From: Bacillota bacterium
Lineage (GTDB): Bacteria; Bacillota; Negativicutes; Sporomusales; Sporomusaceae
Length of the DNA: 64,000 nucleotides
Direction of reading: 5' to 3'
Assembly (NCBI GenBank): GCA_017889705.1
Contig: JAGGAB010000007.1
Span: 62,001 to 126,000, forward strand
The notes under the pieces are model-generated. The model was not told where the DNA came from, made no database searches, and was given only the letters and a program-made list of their open reading frames with translations. Below, one piece after another: positions 3,485-46,684 of this stretch. The position numbers were made by a program, and so were the translations under genes. The first letter of the stretch is position 1; each line of letters begins with the position of its first letter.

Positions 3485-3928
3485 ATGGCTCTGGCGTTTT
3501 TTACGGTATTGGCCACATCGATAATTAAAGGCATCACCCTACTTATTTCCTATATAGCAAACAATACATTTCCTTTGCCGCTGTCAGAGAAGGAAGAGCA
3601 TGTCTATTTGCAGCGCCTTAAGGATGGGGATGAAGTTGCCCGTAATGTATTAATTGAACGTAATTTGCGCTTGGTAGCCCATATTGTAAAAAAATTTGAT
3701 AATACTGGCGAGGACGTGGATGATCTAATCTCTATCGGTACTATTGGCCTGATTAAAGCCATTAATACGTTTGATCCGGCTAAAAAAATCAGGCTGGCTA
3801 CTTATGCTGCCCGCTGCATTGAAAATGAAATACTTATGCATTTGAGGAGTACCCGACGTATTCGGACAGAAGTAAGCTTATATGACCCAATTGGGGTCGA
3901 CAAAGAGGGAAATGAGTTATCTGTTTGA
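3485..3928 (+). CDS. sigK: RNA polymerase sigma-K, N-terminal part (interrupted gene, 5' fragment)
   Basis: [65 protein letters not shown] ends 4 codons past the AATGAG core. Confidence 0.95.
3911..3916 (+). other. attL core AATGAG (left sigK/prophage junction)
   Basis: Same hexamer at 46433..46438; joining them restores the sigK frame. Confidence 0.85.
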
Positions 3929-3946: not shown

Positions 3947-5512
3947 TTACTTGGTTAGTCGAGGGTGAATAATTAGCTCAAAATCGTCGCCTTTTTGGTC
4001 TATCTCTTTTCGGTAAGTGGCAAACTCCATAATCGTTTTTAACATTTTATTTTTGGCTGCCGGGTCCTTCGCCTTGTGGTAGGCAGACAGAACTTTTCTA
4101 AGTTTCGGAATTACATCCTTTTGAGCTTTTTCTCTTTTGGCCTCAATTGCGAGAGCGGCTTCTGTGTTAATAATTGCTTTTTCCGTTTCAGCAATCCGCT
4201 CAGACAGTTTTTGCGATCTGTCCAGATAAACTTCCTCAGTGTATATTTTCCGTTCGAGGAAATCATGCAAACTATCTACTTGCTGGTTAAGGGCCTTTAA
4301 TTCCTTGGTTAGATTTTGCAATATCTTCTGGTTAATGCTAACCGTGTTTTCCTTTTTGCTGGCCGGCTTATGACTGTCCCATTGCGACTGGTATTCCTCA
4401 ACCCACGCTTCCAGACCATCTATTACTCGTTGCTCCACATACTCAAAGCGGCTGCTCTTGTTGGGGCAGTGTTTGTTATAACAGATTAGGTGAGGATATT
4501 GTTGGTGAGAATATGGCCTGTATACCATGCTGGCACCGCATATATCGCATTTAATCAGCCCTGCAAGCGGGTTGGTTATGCCGTTAACTAATTGATAGGG
4601 TACGTGGTATTTGCCTTTTAAAATGGCCTGCGCCTTGTCAAATAGCTCCTGAGAGATAAGCGGCTCATGTTTACCCTGGACGCTGATCCATTCTTCACGC
4701 GGCCGCGTTTTGGTGTCGCGTTTTTTATCGGGGTCCTTGGACTTTTTACTTTCTTTCTTTTTCCACTGTACCTTCCCGGTATAAACTTCATTTTTGAGGA
4801 TAAAGAGGACGGTAGAGGATTCCCACGGCTTGCCGGTATAGGTTTTTGCTCCGCGCCGGTTTAATTCGGCAGCAATCTTATGGCCTCCCATATCACCATT
4901 CGCATATAATTCAAAAATTAGCCTCACCACGTCGGCTTGCTCGGGGTGGGGTATAAGCGTCCTGGTTTGTCCTTCTTTTTTAATCTCGTAGCCGTATGGC
5001 GGTCTGGTTCCTATATAATTGCCGTCCTGTACTGATCGTATTCTGCCGCCTTGTAGACGCCGGGTTATTATTTTTAACTCTTTGCGTGCCATAAAGGCTT
5101 CAAATTCGGTGTATTCTTCGTCAAATTCGTCGTTTAGGTTGTAAATCTTTCGCGGCGTGACAATAAGAGTGTTGGAATTTTTGAAGGTCTTTAATATGAG
5201 GCCTTGATCTTCCATATCGCCACGGCCTAGCCGGTCAATCTCCATGCAGAAAACAGACTTGCATTGCCCTGCTTCAACTTCCTTTAACAGTGCAAGCATT
5301 TCCGGCCTGTGAATTAGACTTTCACCTGATACTATTTCCTCGAATACTTTTGTTATATTAACGCCGTAGTCTTTAGCCAGCTTATACAAGGCTTTTTTGT
5401 GCTTGACTAATGTTTCACCCTCGCCGCGAGCCTCGGCCTCTTGATCTTCCCGAGACTTACGCAGGTAAAAATAGGCCGGTTCTAGGTCGTGTCGTGTATA
5501 TTGCTGCTTCAT
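3947..5512 (-). CDS. Large serine recombinase, SpoIVCA-like site-specific recombinase
   Basis: AYFYLRKSREDQEAEARGEGETLVKH resolvase start, CMEIDRLGRGD, recombinase domain RPPYGYEIKKEG, zinc ribbon IKCDICGASM...CYNKHC, coiled-coil C-terminus; convergent with sigK 5' part. Confidence 0.93.
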   Translation of the reverse strand: MKQQYTRHDLEPAYFYLRKSREDQEAEARGEGETLVKHKKALYKLAKDYGVNITKVFEEIVSGESLIHRPEMLALLKEVEAGQCKSVFCMEIDRLGRGDMEDQGLILKTFKNSNTLIVTPRKIYNLNDEFDEEYTEFEAFMARKELKIITRRLQGGRIRSVQDGNYIGTRPPYGYEIKKEGQTRTLIPHPEQADVVRLIFELYANGDMGGHKIAAELNRRGAKTYTGKPWESSTVLFILKNEVYTGKVQWKKKESKKSKDPDKKRDTKTRPREEWISVQGKHEPLISQELFDKAQAILKGKYHVPYQLVNGITNPLAGLIKCDICGASMVYRPYSHQQYPHLICYNKHCPNKSSRFEYVEQRVIDGLEAWVEEYQSQWDSHKPASKKENTVSINQKILQNLTKELKALNQQVDSLHDFLERKIYTEEVYLDRSQKLSERIAETEKAIINTEAALAIEAKREKAQKDVIPKLRKVLSAYHKAKDPAAKNKMLKTIMEFATYRKEIDQKGDDFELIIHPRLTK

Positions 5513-21595: not shown

Positions 21596-21687
21596 GGGTA
21601 AGAGCCGAATACTGGTTAAGTCGGCGCGGACTGTAAATCCGTAGTGTGCTAGACACGGTGCTGGTTCAATTCCAGCCTTACCCACCA
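21596..21687 (+). tRNA. tRNA-Tyr (anticodon GTA), type II with long variable arm, CCA encoded
   Basis: Acceptor GGGTAAG/CTTACCC, anticodon loop CTGTAAA, variable arm GTGT/ACAC, T-arm GCTGGTTCAATTCCAGC, 3' ACCA. Confidence 0.93.
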
Positions 21688-21851
21688 TATTGAAGTTATG
21701 ACCATTTCGTGGATATGCGCGATATGGTATTTTTATATGCTTACCTGGGCCGCTGACTGGTTCCTCCTTCCGGTCGGCGGTTAAATTTAATGCAGGGGAA
21801 ATTACAATATATATCGAAGTTGTTAGTAAATGACAAAAAGGAGTGATTAAC

Positions 21852-22256
21852 ATGAAATTGGACGCCAAACACCAAGTGTTAATGGCTGTTTATACGGAGT
21901 ATCAAAAGGATAATCCTGATATGCCAAAAGCATTATTGAAGCCTAAGGAAAATCTTGGGATAGAAAGCGACGCTTTTATTACTGCTCTTAAGAAGTTGTA
22001 TAGTGAAGGTTATATAACTAACCCAGGAATAAGTGGAAGCGGATCTGATACTTGTGTCAGTGTTGCAATTATGGGAAAAATGATGGTTACTAGAGAAGGG
22101 TTAGAATACGTAGAGTCTATGCTTAATATAGATAAAACGTTAAGCGAAAAAGAAAAAGTTAATATAATACACAAAACTTTTACTGAACAGGGATTAGATA
22201 TACTTACTGATTTTGCAGCCAAAGTAACTGCGGAAATAATAAAGTCAAAAATATAG
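21852..22256 (+). CDS. YjcQ-like winged-helix protein
   Basis: SDAFITALKKLYSEGYI...VTREGLEYVESM pattern. Confidence 0.5.
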   Translation: MKLDAKHQVLMAVYTEYQKDNPDMPKALLKPKENLGIESDAFITALKKLYSEGYITNPGISGSGSDTCVSVAIMGKMMVTREGLEYVESMLNIDKTLSEKEKVNIIHKTFTEQGLDILTDFAAKVTAEIIKSKI

Positions 22257-22397
22257 AAATATAACTGCGTCCTTCGGGGCGCTTTTGTTTTGAAAATTAA
22301 ACGGAATTTATTCCAAAAAATATTCCGCATTTTAAGCAAAAATTATTCCAAGAGCCGCAAGGCTCTTTTTTCATGCCCAAAAACAGGAGGCGATACC

Positions 22398-22580
22398 GTG
22401 AAGAATGGATGCAACTACTATCATGCGAAAGACCCGCAAGACAAACAAAACTGTCCGAATTGCATACATTGGAGCGGTACTCGCTGTAGTGTTGAGTATA
22501 TGTTTAACGGCAAGACTGATTTGGTGCATGAGCCTGTACGTGTAGGGTGGAAGGGTAATGCGGTTGGGGTGCTTAGATGA
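22398..22580 (+). CDS. Small Cys-rich phage protein
   Basis: GTG 22398 after AGGAGGCG; CNYYHAKDPQDKQNCPNCIHWSGTRC. Confidence 0.55.
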   Translation: MKNGCNYYHAKDPQDKQNCPNCIHWSGTRCSVEYMFNGKTDLVHEPVRVGWKGNAVGVLR

Positions 22581-22930
22581 TGGGGAAGCCGATACCGAAG
22601 AATAAGCGGGTAGTCGATAAAGCCGGTATGAAGAAAGTAAAAACCATTGACCACTGCGAGAAATGCGGCAGGTGGACAGACGGCTTTTTTAATTTGGAAG
22701 TGGCTCACGTTATTGGCAAGGGTGCTGGTGGGCCGGATATAAAAGAGAACTGTATAAAGTTGTGCGGCCCAGCCAGTATGCAGGCCGGCTGCCACGGTGC
22801 CAACCACGCTGGTGAGATAAGCAAGGATGAATTGTTTGCTAAAATTGCTGAGCGGGAAGGTAAGCCGGTGGAAGAGATTAAGGAAATAGCTCATAGGGCT
22901 TGGAGGTTTGGAGAATATGCAACAGATTAA
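22577..22930 (+). CDS. HNH-like protein near terminase
   Basis: CEKCGRWTDGFFNLEVAHVIGKGAGGPDIKENCIKLCGPASMQAGCHGANH. Confidence 0.65.
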   Translation: MMGKPIPKNKRVVDKAGMKKVKTIDHCEKCGRWTDGFFNLEVAHVIGKGAGGPDIKENCIKLCGPASMQAGCHGANHAGEISKDELFAKIAEREGKPVEEIKEIAHRAWRFGEYATD

Positions 22931-23054
22931 ATACATAAGCAATGCATGTTGTGACAAGGCAAGACTAGCCGTAATAAAAGGCGGCACAGTTATTACTGCA
23001 TGTCCCGATCATCCTCCAATGATTGTGTCGAGAGGTAAAGATAATGCTAAGTGA
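22917..23054 (+). CDS. 45-aa protein with CCDKA...ACPDH motif
   Basis: Manual translation MQQIKYISNACCDKARLAVIKGGTVITACPDHPPMIVSRGKDNAK. Confidence 0.55.
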   Translation: MQQIKYISNACCDKARLAVIKGGTVITACPDHPPMIVSRGKDNAK

Positions 23055-23247
23055 CAAAGAGCGGCAGGAACGTGACCCGGCAGCACTACAGCGCGCATTA
23101 TTGGAGATTGAGCAAGAGATTGCGGAGAAGTCTCCTAGATTAGTCCAGGCTAAGATGGAGGCAACAAAAGTTGATTTTGAAATAAAGCTGCTGAAAGAAC
23201 GCAGAAGTGCGTTGCAGTCTGTTTTGAAATCAGTTAGTCAGTTTTAG
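23044..23247 (+). CDS. Hypothetical coiled-coil phage protein
   Basis: ATG 23044; ERDPAALQRALLEIEQEIAEKSPRLVQAKMEATK. Confidence 0.55.
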   Translation: MLSDKERQERDPAALQRALLEIEQEIAEKSPRLVQAKMEATKVDFEIKLLKERRSALQSVLKSVSQF

Positions 23248-23273
23248 AACTTACCAAGAAAGAAGGTGGTAAC

Positions 23274-23699
23274 GTGGCTAAAGTAACAGCCGAAATAGTC
23301 GCGCAAATCATGGGGTTGGCGGCAATGAACTCCAACAGACAAATTTCCGAAATACTTTCCAAACAGGGTATAAACTTAACACATGTTACCATTGGAAAGA
23401 TTATTAAGGAAAACCGGCAAGAACGAACCGAGGCAACAAAAGAAACAATCAATGAGCATATCAAGCAGACTGTCACAACTGACCTGGATATTTTACAGAA
23501 TACCCGAGATAAGTTATATAACTGGTTTAAGGACGATAACCTGCGAATCAGTGAGCGGCTAATGTGTTTAGATCGGCTTACTAAGGTTATTGATACGAGG
23601 TTGAAGTATTCTGGCGCCAGTGAACCCGATAAGCCGGATGATAAATTTGACCAAATGACCGACGAGGAATTAGAGAAATGGATAAGCGCAAACAGTTAG
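23274..23699 (+). CDS. Putative terminase small subunit
   Basis: HTH-like N-term, directly upstream of large subunit. Confidence 0.65.
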   Translation: MAKVTAEIVAQIMGLAAMNSNRQISEILSKQGINLTHVTIGKIIKENRQERTEATKETINEHIKQTVTTDLDILQNTRDKLYNWFKDDNLRISERLMCLDRLTKVIDTRLKYSGASEPDKPDDKFDQMTDEELEKWISANS

Positions 23700-24319
23700 C
23701 CCGGGCGATTGCTGAACGCGAGAGGCGCAACCAAATGCGCGAATGGTCATCGGTTCCTTGGCGTTGGATACAAGACTGCTGTTTGACCATGGATGAAGCT
23801 GACAACGGGATGGTTAAACATTATCCCGATAAAGAGTATTTGCAACTTGTTTGTGAGGTGTGGCAGCGCGAAAACTTATTGGCAATACCAAAGACGCGCC
23901 GTATGCTGCTTACGTGGATTATGTTGGGACTGCATCTGCATGCTGGTATATTTCGACCTAATTCAGCCATATTTGTTCAGTCTAAAAAAGCAGATGATAG
24001 TGACTTTCTTATCCAAGATAAACGAATGATGTTTATTTATAATCACCTGCCGACTGAATATAATTGGCCTGAATGCGTTTCTAAACAATACAGACTTAAC
24101 TTTGACAACGGTAGTTATGTTATGGCAATAGGACAAGGGGCAGACCAGTTGAGACAGTACACCGCCTCATACGCCATGCTTGACGAATTTGCGTTCTGGG
24201 AAAGCGCAGAGGGTACATGGGGAGCGTTAAAACCTATTATTCAGGGTGGCGGCAAAGTAACACTGATAAGCAGTGCTGGCCCCGGATTCTTTCAGCGCAT
24301 TTGTGAGGGTGATATATAA
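23678..24319 (+). CDS. Terminase large subunit, ATPase half
   Basis: PKTRRMLLTWIMLGLHLH (Walker A-like), SYAMLDEFAFWESAEGTW (Walker B), TLISSAGPG coupling motif. Confidence 0.85.
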   Translation: MDKRKQLARAIAERERRNQMREWSSVPWRWIQDCCLTMDEADNGMVKHYPDKEYLQLVCEVWQRENLLAIPKTRRMLLTWIMLGLHLHAGIFRPNSAIFVQSKKADDSDFLIQDKRMMFIYNHLPTEYNWPECVSKQYRLNFDNGSYVMAIGQGADQLRQYTASYAMLDEFAFWESAEGTWGALKPIIQGGGKVTLISSAGPGFFQRICEGDI

Positions 24320-25149
24320 TGCAAGGCATAACTGAATATAAAACCCCGCAAGGTGTGCATGTCCTCCGCATTCACTATACTGCCGATCCTGATAAGCAAT
24401 CACCAGAGTGGGTTGCCGAACAGAAAAAAGGTTTAACGCAGGCACAATGGGAGCGTGAATATGAAATAAACTTTCATGTATATCCTGGCAAGCCATGGTA
24501 CGAAGAATTTCGCATGGACTTCCACGTGGCAAGAGAACCAATTCAACCAATACCAGGCAGGCCAATATTCAGAGGTTGGGACTATGGGCAGACATTTAAC
24601 CCCGCTGTCGTGTTCTGCCAGACTACGGTATTTGGTCAGTTATTGCTTTTATATCCTGAGATTAACGGGTTAAATAGCGGTCTGCATCCATTTGCGCGAA
24701 CTGTTAAATCAGAGTCGGGAACATATTTCCCTGAGAATCCTTTTATTGATTACGGTGATCCGGCAGGGAACAATCGAAGCCCTAACGACGAAAGAAGCGC
24801 AACAGATATATTGCGTACCGATTATGGGATTACTGTGTTGCCCGGGCCGGTTGCGTTTGGAACACGATCTGAGGCTATTCGTAAGCTGCTGACCACGACC
24901 ACGCCGCAAGGACAAGCGATGTTATTAATTGACCCGCGTTGTACATTTATGATTGGCGCATTTACTGGCGGCTATCATCGTAAGCAGCTTGCGTCTGGTC
25001 AGTTGTTAGAAGAACCAGATAAAAACGAATACAGTCATCCTATGGACTCTCTCGGTTATGTAGCCGCGAGCGTTTTTAAATCCGCAGGAAAAGGAACTAG
25101 TACTGAAGTCATAACCAACCACAACCCATTCAAACGAGGGAGGCGATAA
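24319..25149 (+). CDS. Terminase large subunit, RNaseH-like nuclease half
   Basis: TQAQWEREYEINF, FRGWDYGQTFNPAVVF, IDYGDPAG; TAATG overlap with the ATPase ORF. Confidence 0.85.
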   Translation: MQGITEYKTPQGVHVLRIHYTADPDKQSPEWVAEQKKGLTQAQWEREYEINFHVYPGKPWYEEFRMDFHVAREPIQPIPGRPIFRGWDYGQTFNPAVVFCQTTVFGQLLLLYPEINGLNSGLHPFARTVKSESGTYFPENPFIDYGDPAGNNRSPNDERSATDILRTDYGITVLPGPVAFGTRSEAIRKLLTTTTPQGQAMLLIDPRCTFMIGAFTGGYHRKQLASGQLLEEPDKNEYSHPMDSLGYVAASVFKSAGKGTSTEVITNHNPFKRGRR

Positions 25150-25150
25150 T

Positions 25151-25318
25151 ATGGAAACGCTGATGAACATGAAATTATGGATATTAATAACAGCCTTTGG
25201 GATTGGCTTTACCATTGGATATATTCGTTGTTATTTTGTGCTTCGAAAGATTATTTCCAGAATGGGCAAAGCAGAACTTTGGGAATGGATACAAAACGAG
25301 TGTAATAGGAGGCGATAA
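25151..25318 (+). CDS. Small membrane protein (55 aa)
   Basis: METLMNMKLWILITAFGIGFTIGYIRCYFVLRKIISRMGKAELWEWIQNECNRRR. Confidence 0.6.
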   Translation: METLMNMKLWILITAFGIGFTIGYIRCYFVLRKIISRMGKAELWEWIQNECNRRR

Positions 25319-25319
25319 C

Positions 25320-25445
25320 ATGTACAGGTTAGGTGACATCGCCAGGATTAGCAAGGTTACAAGCCTTGAACTATACCTTATGTGGCGCAGAAGTGACAGA
25401 AAAGGATTGGAGGCGATAACATGTGTCTATCACAACCAAAAGTAA
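25320..25445 (+). CDS. Small phage protein (41 aa)
   Basis: MYRLGDIARISKVTSLELYLMWRRSDRKGLEAITCVYHNQK; RBS AGGAGGCG. Confidence 0.5.
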   Translation: MYRLGDIARISKVTSLELYLMWRRSDRKGLEAITCVYHNQK

Positions 25446-25609
25446 ACACAGCCACAACTACAGTGACAAAAGCTGACACTACGTCTAATGAAGACGCCGT
25501 TGCTAATCAATTAGAGCAGGAAAAGAAACGCAGGGGATTCCAGTCCACTATAGCCAGTAAGAATGTTTCGTCTGTAGCGCCAACAGCTAAAGTGACATTG
25601 GGGAGTTAA
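25421..25609 (+). CDS. Small podoviral virion-associated protein (MCLSxPK start)
   Basis: Position next to the portal and MC-start as in podoviral small head/tail proteins. Confidence 0.5.
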   Translation: MCLSQPKVNTATTTVTKADTTSNEDAVANQLEQEKKRRGFQSTIASKNVSSVAPTAKVTLGS

Positions 25610-25613
25610 GCCT

Positions 25614-27302
25614 ATGGATGCAAAAAAAGCAATCAAATATTATGACCGCAAATTCGAAAAGGCCAAGGAAGTGCGGCAGTCTTACGAATCCACTTGGGAA
25701 GATATTATGACGTATATCGCCCCGGATTTAAAAGGCTACTTGCACACCAACAATAAAGACCGTGGCGAACGCGAGGACAGTCTTATATATGACAACACGC
25801 CAACAAAGTCGTGGCTTGATTGTTCCAGTGGAATGTTTGCGAGTATCGCGTCACCGTCCCGGCCTTGGATGCAGCGCACTATGGCAGATGATAGTTACAA
25901 CGACATTCCGGGGCTGAGGTCATGGCTTGACACTGTGACAAAAAAAGACTACAGCATATTGCACCGCAGTAACTTTTATAAGTGCAATTACACAGTGTTT
26001 GCTCATTTGTCTGCTATTGGTACGGCGCTTATTATCTGTGAGCCGGACTATGACAAAATAACTCACTGGACGGTTCCCAATATCGGCGAGTATTATCTCT
26101 TAGTTAATGGTAAGGGGATTGTGGACACCGTATTCCGCGAAATTGAATACACGGCCGAGCAGTTGAAGGGGTTATTTGGAGAAAAGGCCTTGCCAAAAGA
26201 TATTGTCAACTCGATAACAGAAGCCAACCCGACAGGCGGCAAGTACACAGTGAGACACGTGATCGAGCCGGACAGTCAAGGTGTTGTACCATTCCGTAAG
26301 CCGTGGGCGTCTGTATACTATTTGCCAGACAAAAAATATGATGATATGCAAATAATTGATGTCAAGGGCTACAAATGGCAACCGTTCGCTGCTCCGCGTT
26401 GGTATGCAAACAATAATGAGACATATGGCAAGATGCAACCAGGGCGCGTGTCACTGGGTAACTGTCAGCAGTTGTCTACAATGATCTTCGATTATATGGA
26501 TGCTGTCGACCAAGAGTTGAATCCTGCTACACAAGGACCGCCTATTACTGGTGCTATTGATAGACGACCAAACAAGCATAACATCATTGAGCCTGGCGCT
26601 GGTGGCTTGCAAGACCCGACTATCCGGCGACTGTTTGAAACTAACCCGCAATTACAGATTATGTGGGCTGCCATCCAGGACAAGCGCGAACAGATTAAAC
26701 AGGACTTTTACCTGGATTTGTTTATGCCTATTACCACTGGTGGCTATGATACCAACATGACGGCAACAGAGGTAACACAGCGGCGTAATGAGCGAATGCT
26801 GGCACTTGGGCCGGTGTTGGAAAACGTTAATACTGAGTACCTTAACCCGATTACTGAGATCGAATACAACTACGCCACTGAAGCGCAAGCCTACCCACCT
26901 ATTGAAAACTATGTGACAGAGGATGCGCTGGAGGCATTGCAGGGCGAAGAAATCAAGACCGAGTATGTCAGTGTACTGGCTCAGGCTCAGAAGATGGTTG
27001 ACCTTGACCGGATTGACACTACCTTGACCTATGCAGAGAGGTTGGCAGCACTTGATCCAACAGTGGTAATGAAGGTTAATACTATGGAGACCATTGACGA
27101 AGTTGCTAAAATGTCTGGTGCGCCTGGTAGAATGCTGCGGTCTGATGATGAAGTTAAGGAGATGCAAGAGCAACAGCGACAAGACGCGGAACAGCAGCAA
27201 ATGGTTGAGCAGGCGCAGGCAATGGCTAATGTGGCCGGGCAAGCAAGCAAGATGCAAATGGATCAGGATAATGCGCTTACTCGATTCTTGGGGGTGGAAT
27301 AG
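25614..27302 (+). CDS. Head-to-tail connector/portal protein (T7 gp8-like family)
   Basis: YYDRKFEKAKEVRQSYESTWEDIMTYIAPDL...TATEVTQRRNERMLALGPV. Confidence 0.92.
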   Translation: MDAKKAIKYYDRKFEKAKEVRQSYESTWEDIMTYIAPDLKGYLHTNNKDRGEREDSLIYDNTPTKSWLDCSSGMFASIASPSRPWMQRTMADDSYNDIPGLRSWLDTVTKKDYSILHRSNFYKCNYTVFAHLSAIGTALIICEPDYDKITHWTVPNIGEYYLLVNGKGIVDTVFREIEYTAEQLKGLFGEKALPKDIVNSITEANPTGGKYTVRHVIEPDSQGVVPFRKPWASVYYLPDKKYDDMQIIDVKGYKWQPFAAPRWYANNNETYGKMQPGRVSLGNCQQLSTMIFDYMDAVDQELNPATQGPPITGAIDRRPNKHNIIEPGAGGLQDPTIRRLFETNPQLQIMWAAIQDKREQIKQDFYLDLFMPITTGGYDTNMTATEVTQRRNERMLALGPVLENVNTEYLNPITEIEYNYATEAQAYPPIENYVTEDALEALQGEEIKTEYVSVLAQAQKMVDLDRIDTTLTYAERLAALDPTVVMKVNTMETIDEVAKMSGAPGRMLRSDDEVKEMQEQQRQDAEQQQMVEQAQAMANVAGQASKMQMDQDNALTRFLGVE

Positions 27303-27599
27303 ATGCTACCAGGTGACAGACGCAGGCAAGAGCAGAAAAAGCAAGATGAAACTGCCAAGCTTGAACGTGACAAGTTTAACGCCATGATTCAAGCGCAAAT
27401 GAATACCCCACAGGGGCGCAAGTTTGTGTATTGGGTGCTATGGTTGTTGCAATACAATCAGCCAAACCCTCACAACAGCGCACAGGCTTACCGTGTAGCA
27501 GCTATGCAGGGTGTTGCTATTGAGATACACCGGCAGATATATGGTATTGTGCCCAACGAGGTAGAAAAGATGATACGGGAAGGGGTTGAGGGTAGTTGA
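27303..27599 (+). CDS. Hypothetical phage protein downstream of portal
   Basis: ORF; position typical of a Bbp19-like small virion protein. Confidence 0.5.
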   Translation: MLPGDRRRQEQKKQDETAKLERDKFNAMIQAQMNTPQGRKFVYWVLWLLQYNQPNPHNSAQAYRVAAMQGVAIEIHRQIYGIVPNEVEKMIREGVEGS

Positions 27600-27604
27600 G
27601 ATAC

Positions 27605-27650
27605 CCGGCTATGTGAGTTAAGTAAGCGGCGAAAGGCCGTTATTTTTATT
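27605..27650 (+). repeat. Left copy of CCGGCTATG...GCCGTTATTTTTAT hairpin repeat
   Basis: Direct-read similarity with 28179..28202. Confidence 0.65.
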
Positions 27651-27665
27651 TTGGGAGTGTTGACT

Positions 27666-28178
27666 TTGGAGTTTAGAAAAGCTTTGGAATTAATGAAACA
27701 AGGCGTAGATGTTAAGCGCCCGCATTGGTCGGGATTTTGGCGACTTGAAGATGGCAAAATTATGATGTACTGCAAAGATGGCCAAGTCCTGGACTTTAGG
27801 GAAACTAAAGATACCTTGTTTACGATCTCTAGCATCCTGTCCGACGATTGGGAAGTGGCAGATGCCGTTAACAGTAAGCTTCTCAATGGAGAGATAATCA
27901 GTACGTTCACCTTTGGAGAAGCATTGCGGAACATGAAACAAGGTAACAAGGTTGCCCGTAAAGGCTGGAACGGCCATGGTATGTGGGCCGTTATGCAAAA
28001 GGGTTATCCTGATGGTATCCATATCAATAAGAATACTGCCGAAGCTACTGGAATACCGGAAGGCACCTTAATGAAGTTTCGGCCTTATTTTATGCTGTTT
28101 ACTGCGCAAGGCGATTTTGCTCATTGGGTGCCGAGCAGCAGCGACATACTTGCCGATGATTGGCAGATTGTAGAGTAA
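27666..28178 (+). CDS. Tandem DUF2829 protein, Tad2 (anti-Thoeris)-like
   Basis: Two homologous halves: FRKALELMKQGVDVKRPHWSGFWRLEDGKIMMY...LSDDWEV and FGEALRNMKQGNKVARKGWNGHGMWAVMQKGYP...MLFTAQGDFAHWVPSSSDILADDWQI; start 27651 or 27666 (TTG). Confidence 0.82.
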   Translation: MEFRKALELMKQGVDVKRPHWSGFWRLEDGKIMMYCKDGQVLDFRETKDTLFTISSILSDDWEVADAVNSKLLNGEIISTFTFGEALRNMKQGNKVARKGWNGHGMWAVMQKGYPDGIHINKNTAEATGIPEGTLMKFRPYFMLFTAQGDFAHWVPSSSDILADDWQIVE

Positions 28179-28202
28179 CCGGCTATGAGCCGTTATTTTT
28201 AT
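28179..28202 (+). repeat. Right copy of CCGGCTATGAGCCGTTATTTTTAT hairpin repeat
   Basis: CGGCT-atg-AGCCG stem followed by TTATTTTTAT. Confidence 0.65.
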
Positions 28203-28226
28203 GCCTAAATTTAAGGAGGTTCAACC

Positions 28227-28907
28227 ATGACTGACCAAATGACCGCGGCACAGGGTAACACCAACGCCGTCGAGAGCGCATTTGACTTGCAATTATTTGC
28301 AGAGGGTGATCCGGCACCAGATCCGGTTACTGATCCAGCGCCAAGTGATCCAAACCCTACACCTGACCCAACAACGGAGCCGGTAAATAATCCTGATCCG
28401 ACAACGGGTAATCCTGCTGATCCAAAGCCCGACCTGTTGGCCGACTATAAGCCAACTCTACCGGAAGGTTTCACGGCTGATGAAGCCATTATGGGCGAGT
28501 TTCTACCGCTTGCCAAGGAACTAGGTATTTCCGGTGAGCAGGCCGATAAGCTGATTGGCGTAGGCGCTCACCTTGCAGAACGGGTTATTGCTGACATTAA
28601 CCAGCAGTGTGAATCCAAGTATGGTGAAGCAATTAACGCTATTAAGGCCGAGCAGGGATCCGACTTCGAGAAGAATGTCGGGCAGGTAAACGCTCTGTTA
28701 ACCAAGTACGGCGACAAGAACACGCCAGAAGCTTTTCAAGCTGCTATGACAGCGTTGGCCGGATATGCGCCGGACGCAGTCAAGCCGCTTTATGATGCCC
28801 TAATCAAAATAGGGAAGGATGCTGCTGACCCTAGTTTTCATATGGGATCAAGCGCACCGAGTGGGCCTAAATCATTAGGCGATGTTTTATATGGAAAAAG
28901 CAAATAG
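28227..28907 (+). CDS. Putative scaffold/capsid assembly protein with Pro/Asp-rich N-terminus
   Basis: Directly upstream of the capsid gene; DPAPDPVTDPAPSDPNPTPDPTTEPVNNPDPTTGNPADPKPD. Confidence 0.65.
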   Translation: MTDQMTAAQGNTNAVESAFDLQLFAEGDPAPDPVTDPAPSDPNPTPDPTTEPVNNPDPTTGNPADPKPDLLADYKPTLPEGFTADEAIMGEFLPLAKELGISGEQADKLIGVGAHLAERVIADINQQCESKYGEAINAIKAEQGSDFEKNVGQVNALLTKYGDKNTPEAFQAAMTALAGYAPDAVKPLYDALIKIGKDAADPSFHMGSSAPSGPKSLGDVLYGKSK

Positions 28908-28922
28908 AAAGGATGATGACAA

Positions 28923-29921
28923 ATGGCAACTTTAAATGAAACTATGTGGAGTTGGAAAGACTACGCTTCACAACAAGACCCTGACGGAATGGCGGCTCGC
29001 GTAATCGATATTATGAGCGAGGAAAACGCCATCGTCGAAGATATGTATGTTATGCCCGGTAATAAGGATTATGGTCTTTTGACCTCGCAAAACGCTACCG
29101 AACCAACCGTATCAATCCGTGGTGTTAACGGTACTGTTACTGGAACTAAGGGCGCATTCAAACAACTGGAAGCCCATTGTGCACTATTTACCGCGCTTGG
29201 GCAGATCGACAAAGAACTTTATAACGCTGCTACCGACAAAAACGGCTTTCGTGCAAATGCGAATAAGCCGTTTTTTAACGCCATGCCGAAGCGCATTGCT
29301 AATGAACTGTTCTATGGCAGCAAAGCTAACGATGCACAGTCGTTTGATGGCTTGTCCCAGTTCTACAAAAGCACAACTACCGATGAGTTTGGCGAATATG
29401 TCGCTTTGGCCGGGGGAACGGGAACAGACAACCGCTCTATTTGGCTGATTGATTGGGGCGAAGATTCTTGTTGCGGCACTTATCCGAAAAACACCGTGGC
29501 TGGTTTGCAGCATACTCCATACCCAGAAACTCTTGTGGATATGCCGGATGGTTCAAAATGGCCGGCACTGCAGGACTTGTGGGAATGGCGTGTAGGTGTT
29601 GCTGTCCGCGATTACCGCAAGGTATACCGGATTGCTAACATCAGTAAGGCTGCCCTGAAGTCAATTAATACAACTAACGACACAGCACCAAACTTGTTTG
29701 ATCTTATGATTGATGCCTTGACTTGGGTTAATCCTTCGCCGCGTGCAAGGTTTTACGGTGACCGTAATATTATGTCCGCATTCACTAAGCAGGCTTTCAA
29801 TAAGTCTAACAACCTTGTGTCGATGGAAGAAATCTACGGCAAGAAGCGTGTGCCGTCCTTTATGGGTGTACCTATTCGCCGTTGTGATGCACTCGACACT
29901 GATGAAAGTCTCGTATCCTAA
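28923..29921 (+). CDS. Major capsid protein
   Basis: Position and length; NETMWSWKDYASQQDPDG...FYGDRNIMSAFTKQAFNKSNNLVSMEEIYGKKRVPSFMGVPIRRCDAL. Confidence 0.85.
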   Translation: MATLNETMWSWKDYASQQDPDGMAARVIDIMSEENAIVEDMYVMPGNKDYGLLTSQNATEPTVSIRGVNGTVTGTKGAFKQLEAHCALFTALGQIDKELYNAATDKNGFRANANKPFFNAMPKRIANELFYGSKANDAQSFDGLSQFYKSTTTDEFGEYVALAGGTGTDNRSIWLIDWGEDSCCGTYPKNTVAGLQHTPYPETLVDMPDGSKWPALQDLWEWRVGVAVRDYRKVYRIANISKAALKSINTTNDTAPNLFDLMIDALTWVNPSPRARFYGDRNIMSAFTKQAFNKSNNLVSMEEIYGKKRVPSFMGVPIRRCDALDTDESLVS

Positions 29922-29946
29922 TTAACTGAAAAGGGAGGAAAAAACA

Positions 29947-30354
29947 ATGTATGATCTTCAACTTAGTTTTACAAAGCAAACCAATGGAACGCCGAAACAG
30001 ACTATTACTGATTCGGCGGCTTCCACCAATGTATTAAACTTCGGCACCAAGGGGGCGTTTTATAAACCGGCTTATCTTCACATTCGTGTTGTAGATGCGT
30101 TTGAATCCGGTACTTCTGGCGCCACGCTTACCGCTGCATTGCAAAGCGATAGTGCCGAGGCTTTTTCAAGTGCGGCCACGATGGTTACGCCGATCAATGC
30201 CGTTGACCATGCCAACCTGACTGCCGGTTACCACAAAGTAATTCCGTTTCCTATCCAGGACACTGAGCAGTATTACAGGCTGTATTTTACCGCATCCGTA
30301 GCTATGACAGCCGGTAGTGTCGTTGCCTATATTAACGATTCGCCGGAGCTATAA
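29947..30354 (+). CDS. Bbp16-family capsid cement protein
   Basis: MYDLQLSFTKQTNGTPKQTITDSAASTNVLNFG...QYYRLYFTAS; follows major capsid. Confidence 0.75.
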   Translation: MYDLQLSFTKQTNGTPKQTITDSAASTNVLNFGTKGAFYKPAYLHIRVVDAFESGTSGATLTAALQSDSAEAFSSAATMVTPINAVDHANLTAGYHKVIPFPIQDTEQYYRLYFTASVAMTAGSVVAYINDSPEL

Positions 30355-30355
30355 G

Positions 30356-30502
30356 ATGTATAAATGTATACGTCCGGCTTATATTGACGGCAAACTTTAT
30401 GCAAAAGGTGCTGTTGTTGAAACGGTACCTAAGGGCTGGGACAAAAATTTCAGCATAACAAACCAAGAGAAGGTAAGTAAAACGAGGAAAAGGGACGGTT
30501 AA
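30356..30502 (+). CDS. Small phage protein (48 aa)
   Basis: MYKCIRPAYIDGKLYAKGAVVETVPKGWDKNFSITNQEKVSKTRKRDG. Confidence 0.55.
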   Translation: MYKCIRPAYIDGKLYAKGAVVETVPKGWDKNFSITNQEKVSKTRKRDG

Positions 30503-30526
30503 TTCCGTCCCTTCCCATTTTTATTA
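30491..30526 (+). terminator. Putative intrinsic terminator
   Basis: GGGACGGttaattCCGTCCC followed by T-rich run. Confidence 0.55.
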
Positions 30527-30540
30527 TTGAGGTGATTTCT

Positions 30541-31161
30541 TTGACTAAGTACGACATTTGTAATATTGCTTTATCAAATTTAGGCATTACCCGGTCTATA
30601 TCCAACTTCACAGATAACACCATTGAAGCCATGCTATGTGGCCGTTATTATGACTTAGCCAAAGAAATTGCCTTAACAGCTTACGAATGGAAGTTTGCCA
30701 ACATATACAACTCTGCGGCCTTGACACTAACCGAAGATGCACACGCAGAATATCAGTATGTTTATGAATATCCAGATGATTGTCTAAAGATTACCGCTGT
30801 TGGCACTGCAAGAGATTTAGGTGTATTTGAATATCCATTCGAAGTATTTGCTATTTATGATGAAAATTATGACACTGTTAAGCGCATTGGCTGCGATATA
30901 GCCGATGCAACGGCGAGCTATTTAGTCGATGTGGACGAAAATGCTATGCCGGCGGCTTTTGTTAAAGCCCTGTCGTGGGGAATTGCAGCAGAAGTTGCAT
31001 ACGGTCTTACGACTTCGCCCCAAATGGCGCAGTACGCTTCACAAATGTACGGCGTGGCGTTAAACCAGGCAATACACCGGAACTTTACCGAAGGGAAACA
31101 GACAAAGGAAATGCCTAGATACATCAGGGCGCGCGGAGGATGGTATCATGGCAAAGATTAA
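30541..31161 (+). CDS. Tail tubular protein A-like (T7 gp11 family)
   Basis: CNIALSNLGI...YDLAKEIALTAYEWKFAN; position before TTPB. Confidence 0.75.
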   Translation: MTKYDICNIALSNLGITRSISNFTDNTIEAMLCGRYYDLAKEIALTAYEWKFANIYNSAALTLTEDAHAEYQYVYEYPDDCLKITAVGTARDLGVFEYPFEVFAIYDENYDTVKRIGCDIADATASYLVDVDENAMPAAFVKALSWGIAAEVAYGLTTSPQMAQYASQMYGVALNQAIHRNFTEGKQTKEMPRYIRARGGWYHGKD

Positions 31162-33433
31162 GATGCAACCTTCGTTTGCTGCCGGTGAGCTCGCGCCTGC
31201 GCTAAGGCGGCGGACAGACCTACAAAAGTATGCAATTGGTGCCGATACAATTAAAAACATGGTTGTCTTACCACAAGGCGGCTTGCAGGCTCGAATAGGT
31301 ACAAAGTATGTAGCCTCTGTAAAAGCGCCGTTAAACAGCACCAGGCTTGTGTCATTTGCTTACAACACTGCACAGGCATACATACTTGAGTTTGGCGATT
31401 ACTATGTGCGGTTTTTCATGGACGGTGCGCAAATAGTTGTAAGCGACACGGACTCTACTCCTTATGAGGTTGCAACTCCTTACCCTGTGGCCGATATATG
31501 GAAGTTGAAATTTGAGCAGTCTGCAGATACGTTGTATATTATTCATCCAGACTATATTCCGAGGCTGCTTACCCGGACGGATCACAATGCCTGGACGCTA
31601 ACAGTTGGTGACTTTGAGTTTGGGCCACTTAATAACGAGAACAGCACTACTAAAAGAATCACGTTAAGCAATTCAGATGGTGATACATGGCTGTATGAAG
31701 GTGAAACCGTAACTGCCACAGCTTCTACAGGGCTGTTTAAGGAGGAGCATATCGGGTCAATATGGGGCATTCGTTATAGAGCGTTTAACGGTACTGAAAC
31801 TTATACCATATCTAGCGGTGTTGCATTTACAAGTGATGTCTTTAGGGTATTGGGAGACTGGACGGTAACAATTAGAGCCTATGGCGCTGACATGAATAAC
31901 TCTAACACCACTATCTATAAGTCGGTTGATGATGGATCTACTTGGTTCAAAATCAAGACTATAGTGGCAAATATCCAGGACGGCAGCACTTATTCTGTGA
32001 CCGGCTCAGAAGATGACGAATGTTTAATCAAGATTTCCAAGCCGGCTGCTGAAGATAGCGGCTCTATTACAATTGACTTATCAGGACAATATTCCTGGTG
32101 TTACTTTAAAATAACCGGTTATACCTCAACTACGGTTGCCACTGCTGTTATGCAAAATAACTTCAACAAAGGCGGTACTCCATTCAAAACATGGGCCGAA
32201 GGTGCTTGGTCAAGTTATAGAGGGTGGCAAAACTCAGTAACCTTCTTTCAAAACCGGTTGATGTTTGGCGGTAACGACAACTACCCTAATACCTATTGGG
32301 CGAGTTGCGTAGATGATTATTATAATAACGTGGTGAGCATTGACCAGGTAGAGGATGAATCAATACAAGACAGGCTGCCATCCAGGCAGGTAAACGCCAT
32401 TGAGTGGATGATACCTATGCAGGATTTAATTGTTTTAACACAGGATTCCGAATGGACTATAAGCCCGTCAACAACGACGGGTATTTTTTCGTACAAATCT
32501 AAGATAGTGAAACAGAGAGGTTCTAGTGGTTGCAATGGTAGTGTTAAACCGGTGGTTATTACCGACACGGTTATATTCTTACGGCGTAACGCCAATAAGG
32601 TCCAGGGATTAACCTACACGGATGCAAATGGCTATTCGTCATCTGAGCTATCAATCATGGCAGACCACTTATTTAGTGGGTATACCATTAAAAAATGGGC
32701 TTATCAACAGAATCCTAACTCTATTCTGTGGTGCGTGCGCTCAGATGGGGCGCTATTGTCATTTACCTATATGCCCGAGCAAGATGTATGGGCTTGGTCG
32801 CATCACGACACAGACGGCTTGTTTGAGGATGTTGAGGTTATTCCCGGAGATGCGCAGGACGAAGTATATTTCATTGTTAATCGGACAATTAACGGTTCTA
32901 CTTGCCGGTATATTGAAATGCTGGCAGAGCGGGACGTGACCAGCCGGGAAACATACTGGGGCGTGGACTGCGGAGCAAGCCAAAGCTATGATATGGCCAC
33001 AACTACGGTAAGCGACCTTGACTTCTTGGAAGGTAAATCAATCAGGGTTTTCGCTGACGGTGTTAATGTTGGCAAAAAAACCGTTTCTAGTGGCGTGATT
33101 ACTCTCGACAAAGCGGCAAGTTATGTGATGGTCGGACTTGATTATGATTGGCTTGTTAAGACGCTTAGTATTGATTCTGGTATAGACCGTAAGAAGTCGA
33201 TTAATAGCGTCACTGTATCGGTTGTAGATTCGTATGGCGGCGAAATTATGAGTAACGAAATAGACCTGCCGATTAAACTGCCTTATCCGGGCACCGAATA
33301 TTATACCGGTGACCTTATTGACGTAATCGCAAGTGCCACATGGGACTATCCCGGTCAGGTTATCATTCAGGGCACCGGTTACGATCCTATGCATATCGTA
33401 GCTATTACTCCGAAGGTGAGCTATGGAAGTTAA
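31148..33433 (+). CDS. Tail tubular protein B-like (T7 gp12 family)
   Basis: PSFAAGELAPALRRRTDLQKYAIGADTIKNMVVLPQGGLQARIGTKYVA...FFQNRLMFGGNDNYPNTYWAS. Confidence 0.85.
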   Translation: MAKIKMQPSFAAGELAPALRRRTDLQKYAIGADTIKNMVVLPQGGLQARIGTKYVASVKAPLNSTRLVSFAYNTAQAYILEFGDYYVRFFMDGAQIVVSDTDSTPYEVATPYPVADIWKLKFEQSADTLYIIHPDYIPRLLTRTDHNAWTLTVGDFEFGPLNNENSTTKRITLSNSDGDTWLYEGETVTATASTGLFKEEHIGSIWGIRYRAFNGTETYTISSGVAFTSDVFRVLGDWTVTIRAYGADMNNSNTTIYKSVDDGSTWFKIKTIVANIQDGSTYSVTGSEDDECLIKISKPAAEDSGSITIDLSGQYSWCYFKITGYTSTTVATAVMQNNFNKGGTPFKTWAEGAWSSYRGWQNSVTFFQNRLMFGGNDNYPNTYWASCVDDYYNNVVSIDQVEDESIQDRLPSRQVNAIEWMIPMQDLIVLTQDSEWTISPSTTTGIFSYKSKIVKQRGSSGCNGSVKPVVITDTVIFLRRNANKVQGLTYTDANGYSSSELSIMADHLFSGYTIKKWAYQQNPNSILWCVRSDGALLSFTYMPEQDVWAWSHHDTDGLFEDVEVIPGDAQDEVYFIVNRTINGSTCRYIEMLAERDVTSRETYWGVDCGASQSYDMATTTVSDLDFLEGKSIRVFADGVNVGKKTVSSGVITLDKAASYVMVGLDYDWLVKTLSIDSGIDRKKSINSVTVSVVDSYGGEIMSNEIDLPIKLPYPGTEYYTGDLIDVIASATWDYPGQVIIQGTGYDPMHIVAITPKVSYGS

Positions 33434-33857
33434 AACAGCGACACTTGCTGACGTGGATAACTTCGTCATGCGCCAGGATGATAAGGCAGAGATTTCAGAA
33501 CTGTACGGCTTAGAGCCATACGATGCATTAAGGCGGTCTATTATTGAATCTGAGGACTGTTGGACAGCCGCAAGTGAGGAAAAAGTCCTGTGTATTGCTG
33601 GCTGTAGTCGAAGCAGTGACGGTGGTTGTTTATGGGTATTATTCGCCGACATACAACTGTTGCCGCTGTCTTTTTTTAAAGAAAGCCGGAAACATGCTCA
33701 ATACATGCTGAAAAAGTACGGCAATTTATCAAACTACACGGCGGCAAGTAACGTGTTTGTTATTAAATGGGCGAAGTCATTAGGCTTTACGGTTGATGAA
33801 CCAATTTCCTACGGCCCAAACGGACGTTTATTTTGCAGATTCCACAAGGAGGGGTAA
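33423..33857 (+). CDS. T7 gp13-like internal virion/acetyltransferase-fold protein
   Basis: YDALRRSIIESEDCWTAASEEKVLCIAGCSRSSDGGCLWVLF...KWAKSLGFTVDE. Confidence 0.65.
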   Translation: MEVKTATLADVDNFVMRQDDKAEISELYGLEPYDALRRSIIESEDCWTAASEEKVLCIAGCSRSSDGGCLWVLFADIQLLPLSFFKESRKHAQYMLKKYGNLSNYTAASNVFVIKWAKSLGFTVDEPISYGPNGRLFCRFHKEG

Positions 33858-33858
33858 T

Positions 33859-34395
33859 ATGTGCTTGCCAGTAATCAGCGCAGTTGCTGAATTAGGATCG
33901 GCAATATCGCAATCACAGGCCAGTAAACAACAGGCTGCCATTGCAAGCCAAAACGCAAAACTAGCAGAAGAACAAGCCAACGAAGTACAGATACAAAAGC
34001 AAGCGGAATTAAACCAGATCAACGACGAAAAGCGGCAGACTATGGGAACGCAACGAGCGGCTGCGGCGGCCAACGGTGGCGACACTAGCATGGGAACAGG
34101 GCTTGGCATTTTAACCGGCACCGCCTACAAGGCCCAGGAAGATAAAAACGACACGGAATATAACTTTGAACTTCAGTCCAATGCTTACCGGCAACAGGCC
34201 AATGATTACCGCAATGCGGCAAGTATATATAAATCCAATGCCAAGAATCAGTTGTATGGTGGCATATTGGGGGCTACGGGAACATATTTCTCAAAACTTA
34301 ACCCATATAAAAAGGCTAACGGTGCCGCGTCAGCTTCTAAATCATTAAAAATACCCAAGTACGGCTCTGTAGCAAAATCAGTATATGAGTGGTGA
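33859..34395 (+). CDS. Internal virion protein (T7 gp14-like)
   Basis: MC start, Ala/Gln-rich helix ISQSQASKQQAAIASQNAKLAEEQANEVQ; position. Confidence 0.65.
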   Translation: MCLPVISAVAELGSAISQSQASKQQAAIASQNAKLAEEQANEVQIQKQAELNQINDEKRQTMGTQRAAAAANGGDTSMGTGLGILTGTAYKAQEDKNDTEYNFELQSNAYRQQANDYRNAASIYKSNAKNQLYGGILGATGTYFSKLNPYKKANGAASASKSLKIPKYGSVAKSVYEW

Positions 34396-46438: not shown

Positions 46439-46684
46439 ATTACGTTAATCGATGTACTGGGAACAGCACCTGATGTTGTGGGTGAAGCGGTCGAAAATCT
46501 CTGTGAACAAGAGCGTTTGAACAGAGAAATAATGCGCTTCGGTTTGCCTGACGGAAGGCGAAAAACCCAGCGTGATATCGCCAAAATTTTAGGAATTTCC
46601 CGGAGTTATGTAAGCAGGATAGAAAAACATGCGATTACCAAACTGGGTAAGACATTATCTGGTGAGGATATTCCGCAAAAATAA
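46433..46684 (+). CDS. sigK: RNA polymerase sigma-K, C-terminal part (interrupted gene, 3' fragment, no own start inferred)
   Basis: NEITLIDVLGTAPDVVGEAVENLCEQERLNREIMRFGLPDGRRKTQRDIAKILGISRSYVSRIEKHAITKL. Confidence 0.92.
   Translation, partial: NEITLIDVLGTAPDVVGEAVENLCEQERLNREIMRFGLPDGRRKTQRDIAKILGISRSYVSRIEKHAITKLGKTLSGEDIPQK

Follow-up and report, generated by a model that had tools for sequence, protein, structure and literature searches.

A predicted nucleotide-signal sponge with two Tad2-fold domains in an accessory slot of a sigK-inserted prophage

The window analysed here is a stretch of 64,000 nucleotides from a genome of the Sporomusaceae (Bacillota; assembly GCA_017889705.1, contig JAGGAB010000007.1, positions 62,001 to 126,000 of the forward strand). 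It contains a podovirus-like prophage, in which a tandem Tad2-like gene is placed between the neck and scaffold genes. The features of this region, with residue numbers counted from the TTG codon at 27666, are as follows.

25614..27302, + strand: portal / head-tail connector (phrog_332, E 1.7e-105)
27303..27599, + strand: small conserved gene 5' of the slot (phrog_528, E 1.1e-7)
27621..27649, + strand: bracketing repeat, upstream copy, terminator-like hairpin AGCGGCGAAAGGCCGTT-ATTTTTAT
27653..27659, + strand: Shine-Dalgarno-like GGGAGTG, 6-nt gap to TTG 27666, read from the sequence
27666..28178, + strand: tandem Tad2-like coding sequence, 170 aa plus stop, TTG start (PF11195, 102.4 bits; homology and Shine-Dalgarno)
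27666..27872, + strand: N half, residues 1-69, predicted N-type (PxWxGYW...DIRET) Tad2-fold domain (AlphaFold2 and Foldseek)
27873..27905, + strand: linker joining the halves, residues 70-80, the block of lowest pLDDT (72) in the full-length model
27906..28175, + strand: C half, residues 81-170, canonical Tad2 domain (PF11195, 87.9 bits; ModTad2, E 2.6e-19; Foldseek 9eib, E 7.9e-8)
28174..28202, + strand: bracketing repeat, downstream copy, hairpin CGGCTATGAGCCG-TTATTTTTAT, 83% identical over 29 nt to the upstream copy
28227..28907, + strand: scaffold/protease-like gene 3' of the slot (phrog_458, E 1.4e-19)
28923..29921, + strand: major head protein (phrog_212, E 8.8e-50)

The tandem Tad2-like coding sequence is real, and both halves quoted in the initial annotation are present in the reading frame. 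The gene had been drawn from 27651 to 28178; the gene itself stands, with its start shifted to the likely TTG codon at 27666 (MEFRKAL...), because GGGAGTG is well placed for it and homologues begin at the same residue (MxFxxAL). An exact 13-nt core, CCGTTATTTTTAT, occurs in two copies within the window, both of them in the repeats that bracket the gene.

The prophage splits sigK. The N-terminal part matches TIGR02846 spore_sigmaK (E 4.8e-72) and the C-terminal part has SigK as its best match (E 1.7e-17); one part lies at each end of the prophage, and one end also has a large serine recombinase (3485-3928, 3947-5512 on the minus strand, and 46478-46684 in the window), and the element is skin-like. 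Further, the terminase large subunit match falls on the first of two adjacent ORFs, 23678-24319 (213 aa) and 24319-25149 (276 aa), of which the second is conserved in relatives and has no PHROGs match; together they are perhaps a split terminase. One fetched viral locus (L005, IMGVR_UViG_3300033406_000375) is 100% identical over 12525 nt to window positions 21651-34175 and therefore represents the same phage, not independent evidence.

The gene was initially described as lying in the structural operon, which is right for its location; the site itself is an accessory slot and does not imply a structural role, since it is empty or differently filled in relatives. It is empty in two collinear relatives (L191, L193) and in a second element of the host genome (G000, contig C150), and holds an ORF with an HELVH motif in L192, an unrelated ORF in L189 and an HNH/NUMOD4 endonuclease in G021; the loci with other cargo in the slot are L192, L189, L203, L202 and L200. 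In a genome of the same taxonomic order (G023), a zinc ribbon fused to a Tad2 domain 65% identical to the window C half occupies the slot, and in a genome of the same genus (G007, L202:1781-2197) the occupant joins a zinc ribbon to a Tad1 domain. The two ribbons are 59% identical. The Tad1 assignment rests on a PDB sequence match (8kbb, E 1.4e-15), because the score against the Pfam Acb2_Tad1 hairpin model, 14.1 bits, is under the cut-off of 27.

Presence and absence at one site in collinear relatives, as found here, is the behaviour of an accessory cassette (moron). A structural protein would always be found in the head module and be conserved with it, and this gene is absent from the head modules of sister phages. 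A function in head morphogenesis or in the virion would nonetheless explain why the same neck-scaffold position recurs among unrelated phages, in the window, in Dorea phage DO134P1, in SpaA1, in Vibrio phage 1.205.O and at many IMG/VR loci. Such a function is very improbable: the slot is empty or otherwise filled in sister phages whose scaffold and head genes are 54-61% identical, the tandems found elsewhere adjoin either scaffold/head genes or holin/endolysin genes, and the bracketing hairpin repeats look cassette-like. A structural protein was rejected on the empty sites and the lysis-module tandems. Because empty slots are combined with Tad1 and Tad2 fusions in the same slot, a sponge role is favoured and a structural one disfavoured, and we conclude that the slot is used for putative immune-signal sponges and that the tandem Tad2 gene belongs to its accessory cargo.

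Short repeats of differing sequence, several of them hairpin-forming, also bracket Tad2-family genes in unrelated phages (L020, L105, L116, L019, L169), which is suggestive of cassette insertion. Such bracketing was found for 5 of 98 focal genes, compared with 7 of 912 others (P = 0.004); since the threshold and the search span were set once the first cases had been seen, it is only suggestive as a general signature of Tad2 genes.

The proposal that one chain contains two similar Tad2-like halves is borne out jointly by shuffling, profile-profile comparison, Pfam and fold models. Local alignment of the N half with the C half scored 55, against 46 for the best of 2000 shuffles, and their profile-profile comparison gave 95.6%, against 10-13% for a control, an unrelated phage module fused to other Tad2s. 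Against PF11195 (Tad2-like, DUF2829), for which the curated Pfam cut-off is 25 bits, the whole protein scored 102.4 bits and the C half alone 87.9; the N half alone reached 22.1 bits, just short of the cut-off. Structural modelling, the check suggested at the outset, predicts a Tad2 fold for both halves (AlphaFold2 pLDDT 93 each, with Foldseek matches to Tad2 chains). The full-length AlphaFold2 model, built with 48 homologues, has a mean pLDDT of 93.3 across 170 residues and a pTM of 0.59, so that the placing of the N half relative to the C half is uncertain. All 24 of its significant PDB matches in Foldseek are chains of Tad2 or AcrIIA7, and ModTad2 plus hisADPR ranks first. Modelled alone, the N half gave a pLDDT of 93.4 and a pTM of 0.79, and Tad2 chains make up its top 15 PDB matches (TMq 0.66-0.73), below which only noise appears. 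At the level of these models, the encoding of two Tad2-fold domains in tandem at window positions 27666-28178 is confirmed.

Relatives were gathered by pattern-based scans of IMG/VR and GTDB genomes, so copy counts are not prevalences. At least about 70 non-identical tandems were found, mostly in Clostridia prophages (PHROG 1048), and at least 69 different C halves have an N-type partner among the loci fetched, which also include one N-N-C protein (L038). N-type domains are further found fused to a third Tad2 type, here called M-type (L150, L164), and as stand-alone genes of about 66-80 codons (L122, L123, L126, L129, L142, L180). The stand-alone genes gave either nothing or 16-20 bits against PF11195, and a canonical Tad2 partner was absent from the contigs seen; N can therefore exist alone. 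In the domain tree, the N-type domains, stand-alone ones included, form one 100/100 group, and the canonical domains, single-domain Tad2s included, form a second 100/100 group. The N-type is a conserved Tad2-fold subfamily that falls under Pfam's cut-off and has stand-alone members.

The tree also bears on how the two halves came together. The halves are not closer to each other than to outside domains, as an internal duplication or a pseudo-dimer would have them, and a recent internal duplication was rejected because they fall in separate clades, each with stand-alone members. A decayed first half was likewise rejected, the N half being conserved and having stand-alone members. In the tree the window C half falls among single-domain Tad2s, apart from the tandem C halves of Lachnospiraceae phages. 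Its identity to the single-domain Tad2s in the alignment is 48-64%, against 35-54% for the C halves of other tandems; between the window N half and the N halves of other proteins the figure is 42-55%. In a tree of N domains only, built from a short domain and with many forks unresolved, the partner type switches 16 times (minimum 5, shuffled mean 24), which indicates that the N-C pairing is mostly inherited yet exchanged. Judged from these sequence comparisons, the window protein is a fusion of two old, separate Tad2 subfamilies, in which the C partner has been exchanged.

Several other arrangements were observed in the same scans. An M-type Tad2-like ORF (70-80 codons, ...PDEHSKMTAPYLYV...VPWKET) lies directly 5' of a canonical Tad2 gene, with slight overlap, in L049, L051, L058, L082, L083 and L090 (at about 4760-5270; in L083 at 271-752), and this pair is a two-gene form of the tandem. 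In L174:4001-4489 an N-type Tad2 shares one chain with a crAss001_48-related domain (PF21825, 64.8 bits). In L185 (about 1300-1710), from a genome of the window's class, the ORF immediately 5' of an N-type gene resembles the PF21825 domain by eye. Also, a module that is not in Pfam, YIGTK...EGYLVxYxDGYxSWSPKxxFEEAYR, is N-terminal to canonical Tad2 in more than ten loci (including L010, L026, L030, L035, L036, L052, L056, L064, L076 and L077). This module was considered as a Tad2 homologue and rejected, with hhalign giving only 10-13%.

Across 29 tandems, G13, K17, W21, G23, W25 and W62 of the N half are invariant, and P19, Y/F24, D43, R45, E46, T47 and T53 are kept in more than 90%. The C half has all the canonical loop motifs, RxGWNG and WxxSxxD...DW, which are partly ascertained because the scan patterns used them. 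Of these motifs the N half keeps only W21, G23 and the terminal DW; W21 and G23 align with W101 and G103 of the C half, and N102, W154, S157 and D160 of the C half have no counterpart. The first half indeed is without a segment of the MLFTAQGDFAHWVPSSSD type, as originally reported, and has its own conserved segment, LDFRET, in that place. In the Tad2 tetramer the gcADPR pocket is edged by loop b1-b2, loop b3-b4, strand b4, loop b4-a3 and helix a3 (review PMC12043709). With the pocket geometry taken from that review, the N-type's own invariants (P19, W21, G23, Y/F24, W25 and D43-R45-E46-T47) fall in loops matching the pocket loops. The diverged pocket-loop motifs of the two halves are thus supported by both conservation and alignment, and the N-specific invariants may represent an altered pocket chemistry.

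What the N half does can be read in more than one way. It might have a pocket of its own for a different signal, so that one polypeptide would neutralize two defence signals. This possibility, which corresponds to the widened ligand range of the initial annotation and which we hold to be rather doubtful, is favoured by the conservation of the N-type and its stand-alone occurrence on contigs where no canonical Tad2 was seen, by the invariant W/GYW/DIRET residues in pocket loops, and by the shuffling of N among different C partners. However, an N half that completes a shared pocket or interface would yield the same conservation, and in the model the helix at residues 122-128 of the C half has no counterpart in the N half, which therefore cannot form every canonical contact. 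Alternatively, the N half might serve only in assembly, stability or localization, with all ligand binding done by the C half. C-type Tad2 domains do carry unrelated N-terminal modules, such as the zinc ribbon (G023), a coil (Vibrio phage 1.205.O) and the YIGTK...SWSPKxxFEEAYR module, and such additions may be generic adaptors, since a similar ribbon also heads the Tad1 domain. This second possibility also appears somewhat unlikely: unlike the other modules, the N half is itself a predicted Tad2 fold, stands alone elsewhere and has conserved pocket-loop residues.

Considering the ligand, the initial annotation had pointed to sequestration of gcADPR. Membership in the Tad2 family (PF11195) agrees with a sponge of this kind, but gcADPR itself is not to be assumed, as the nearest solved relative is ModTad2 with His-ADPR. 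ModTad2 is reported to bind His-ADPR, and SPO1 Tad2 to bind gcADPR (PMC13299392). Because the C half is nearest to ModTad2, an ADPR-type ligand is likely, and this similarity does not name the exact ligand. Inhibition of CRISPR, or another kind of inhibition that does not involve a sponge, may be considered because the Tad2 homologues in the PDB include AcrIIA7, named a type II CRISPR inhibitor. There is little to recommend it: the AcrIIA7 sequence has also been deposited with 1',2'-cADPR and cGG bound (8kbj, 8kbk), and ModTad2 is the closer of the two to the window C half.

In the host genome (G000), a search found no match to ThsB_TIR, and no SMODS cyclase was found; a search for Thoeris STALD also matched nothing, but neither did its positive control, so this result carries no weight. 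ThsB_TIR is present in 18 of 151 relatives, two of them of the same genus. That none was found in the host would fit a phage that encounters these systems in other strains.

Taken together, the gene is probably an accessory cassette, expressed late, of the podovirus-like prophage inserted in sigK, and its product a predicted nucleotide-signal sponge. In pockets between protomers, the C half would sequester an immune signal of ADP-ribose type, resembling His-ADPR or gcADPR. Tad2 has been described as a homotetramer (PMC12043709), which makes the pseudo-dimer of the initial annotation a tentative description. In the present protein the N half may fill the place of a protomer in the Tad2 assembly, where it would give either the other pocket wall or a second pocket of altered chemistry, and the active oligomer would then consist of tandem chains, not of four identical ones. 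TIR defences can recognize phage head proteins (review PMC12043709), and a sponge co-produced with head genes would therefore be well timed; its action would fall in late infection, while head proteins recognizable by TIR sensors are made. The sponge explanation is supported by the close PDB relatives of both halves, which are all Tad2 sponges, the best for the C half being ModTad2-hisADPR with 44% identity. Counting against it are the N half, under the Pfam cut-off and devoid of the equivalents of N102, W154, S157 and D160, the low pTM of the full-length model, and the host genome, in which neither ThsB_TIR nor an SMODS cyclase was matched.

No paper on a tandem Tad2 was found in the open-access literature. 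Already in databases are the tandem (PHROG 1048) and the C half (PF11195); new are the N half as a separate Tad2-fold subfamily below Pfam detection with stand-alone members, the exchange of partners and the Tad1 fusion in the slot. Counter-defence sponges are discovered through family models, and putative phage anti-immunity genes go unseen because the Pfam Tad2 model misses the N-type even where it stands alone. Further, a heterotypic Tad2 fusion would let ligand choice and pocket sharing be probed by simple domain or point changes, and a slot beside capsid genes whose cargo alternates between Tad1, Tad2 and tandem Tad2 offers a positional route to more sponges. A broader idea, unlikely though worth stating, is that the N-type ('DIRET') is an independent unannotated sponge family with its own ligand, that the tandems are two-signal sponges arising from the shuffling of N-, M- and C-types, and that such slots swap Tad1 and Tad2 cargo.

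Among known systems, ModTad2 (PDB 9eib, with hisADPR) resembles the C half in its fold, in the GWNG and WxPSxSDILAxDW motifs and in 44% identity in the structural match. In contrast to ModTad2 (about 89 aa), the window protein has 170 aa and an added Tad2-fold N half of another subfamily, and the middle loop of its C half is 5 residues longer. SPO1 Tad2, SptTad2 and HgmTad2 (AcrIIA7) have a homologous domain, solved with gcADPR or cGG, but are single-domain proteins whose structural matches to the C half show 31-36% identity, and they read WVPSQTD or WLASQTD where the window protein has WVPSSSD. The unnamed PHROG 1048 (211 positions) matches at E 1e-43 across the two halves, from residue 6 to residue 175 of the 175-aa reading, but gives no function and does not tell apart the stand-alone N, N-M, N-N-C and split-gene forms. 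Finally, the ribbon-Tad1 fusion (G007, L202:1781-2197) shares with the tandem a sponge-family domain, the same slot, a homologous phage backbone and the same host genus, and differs from it in an unrelated fold and in a zinc ribbon that takes the place of the N-type Tad2 half.
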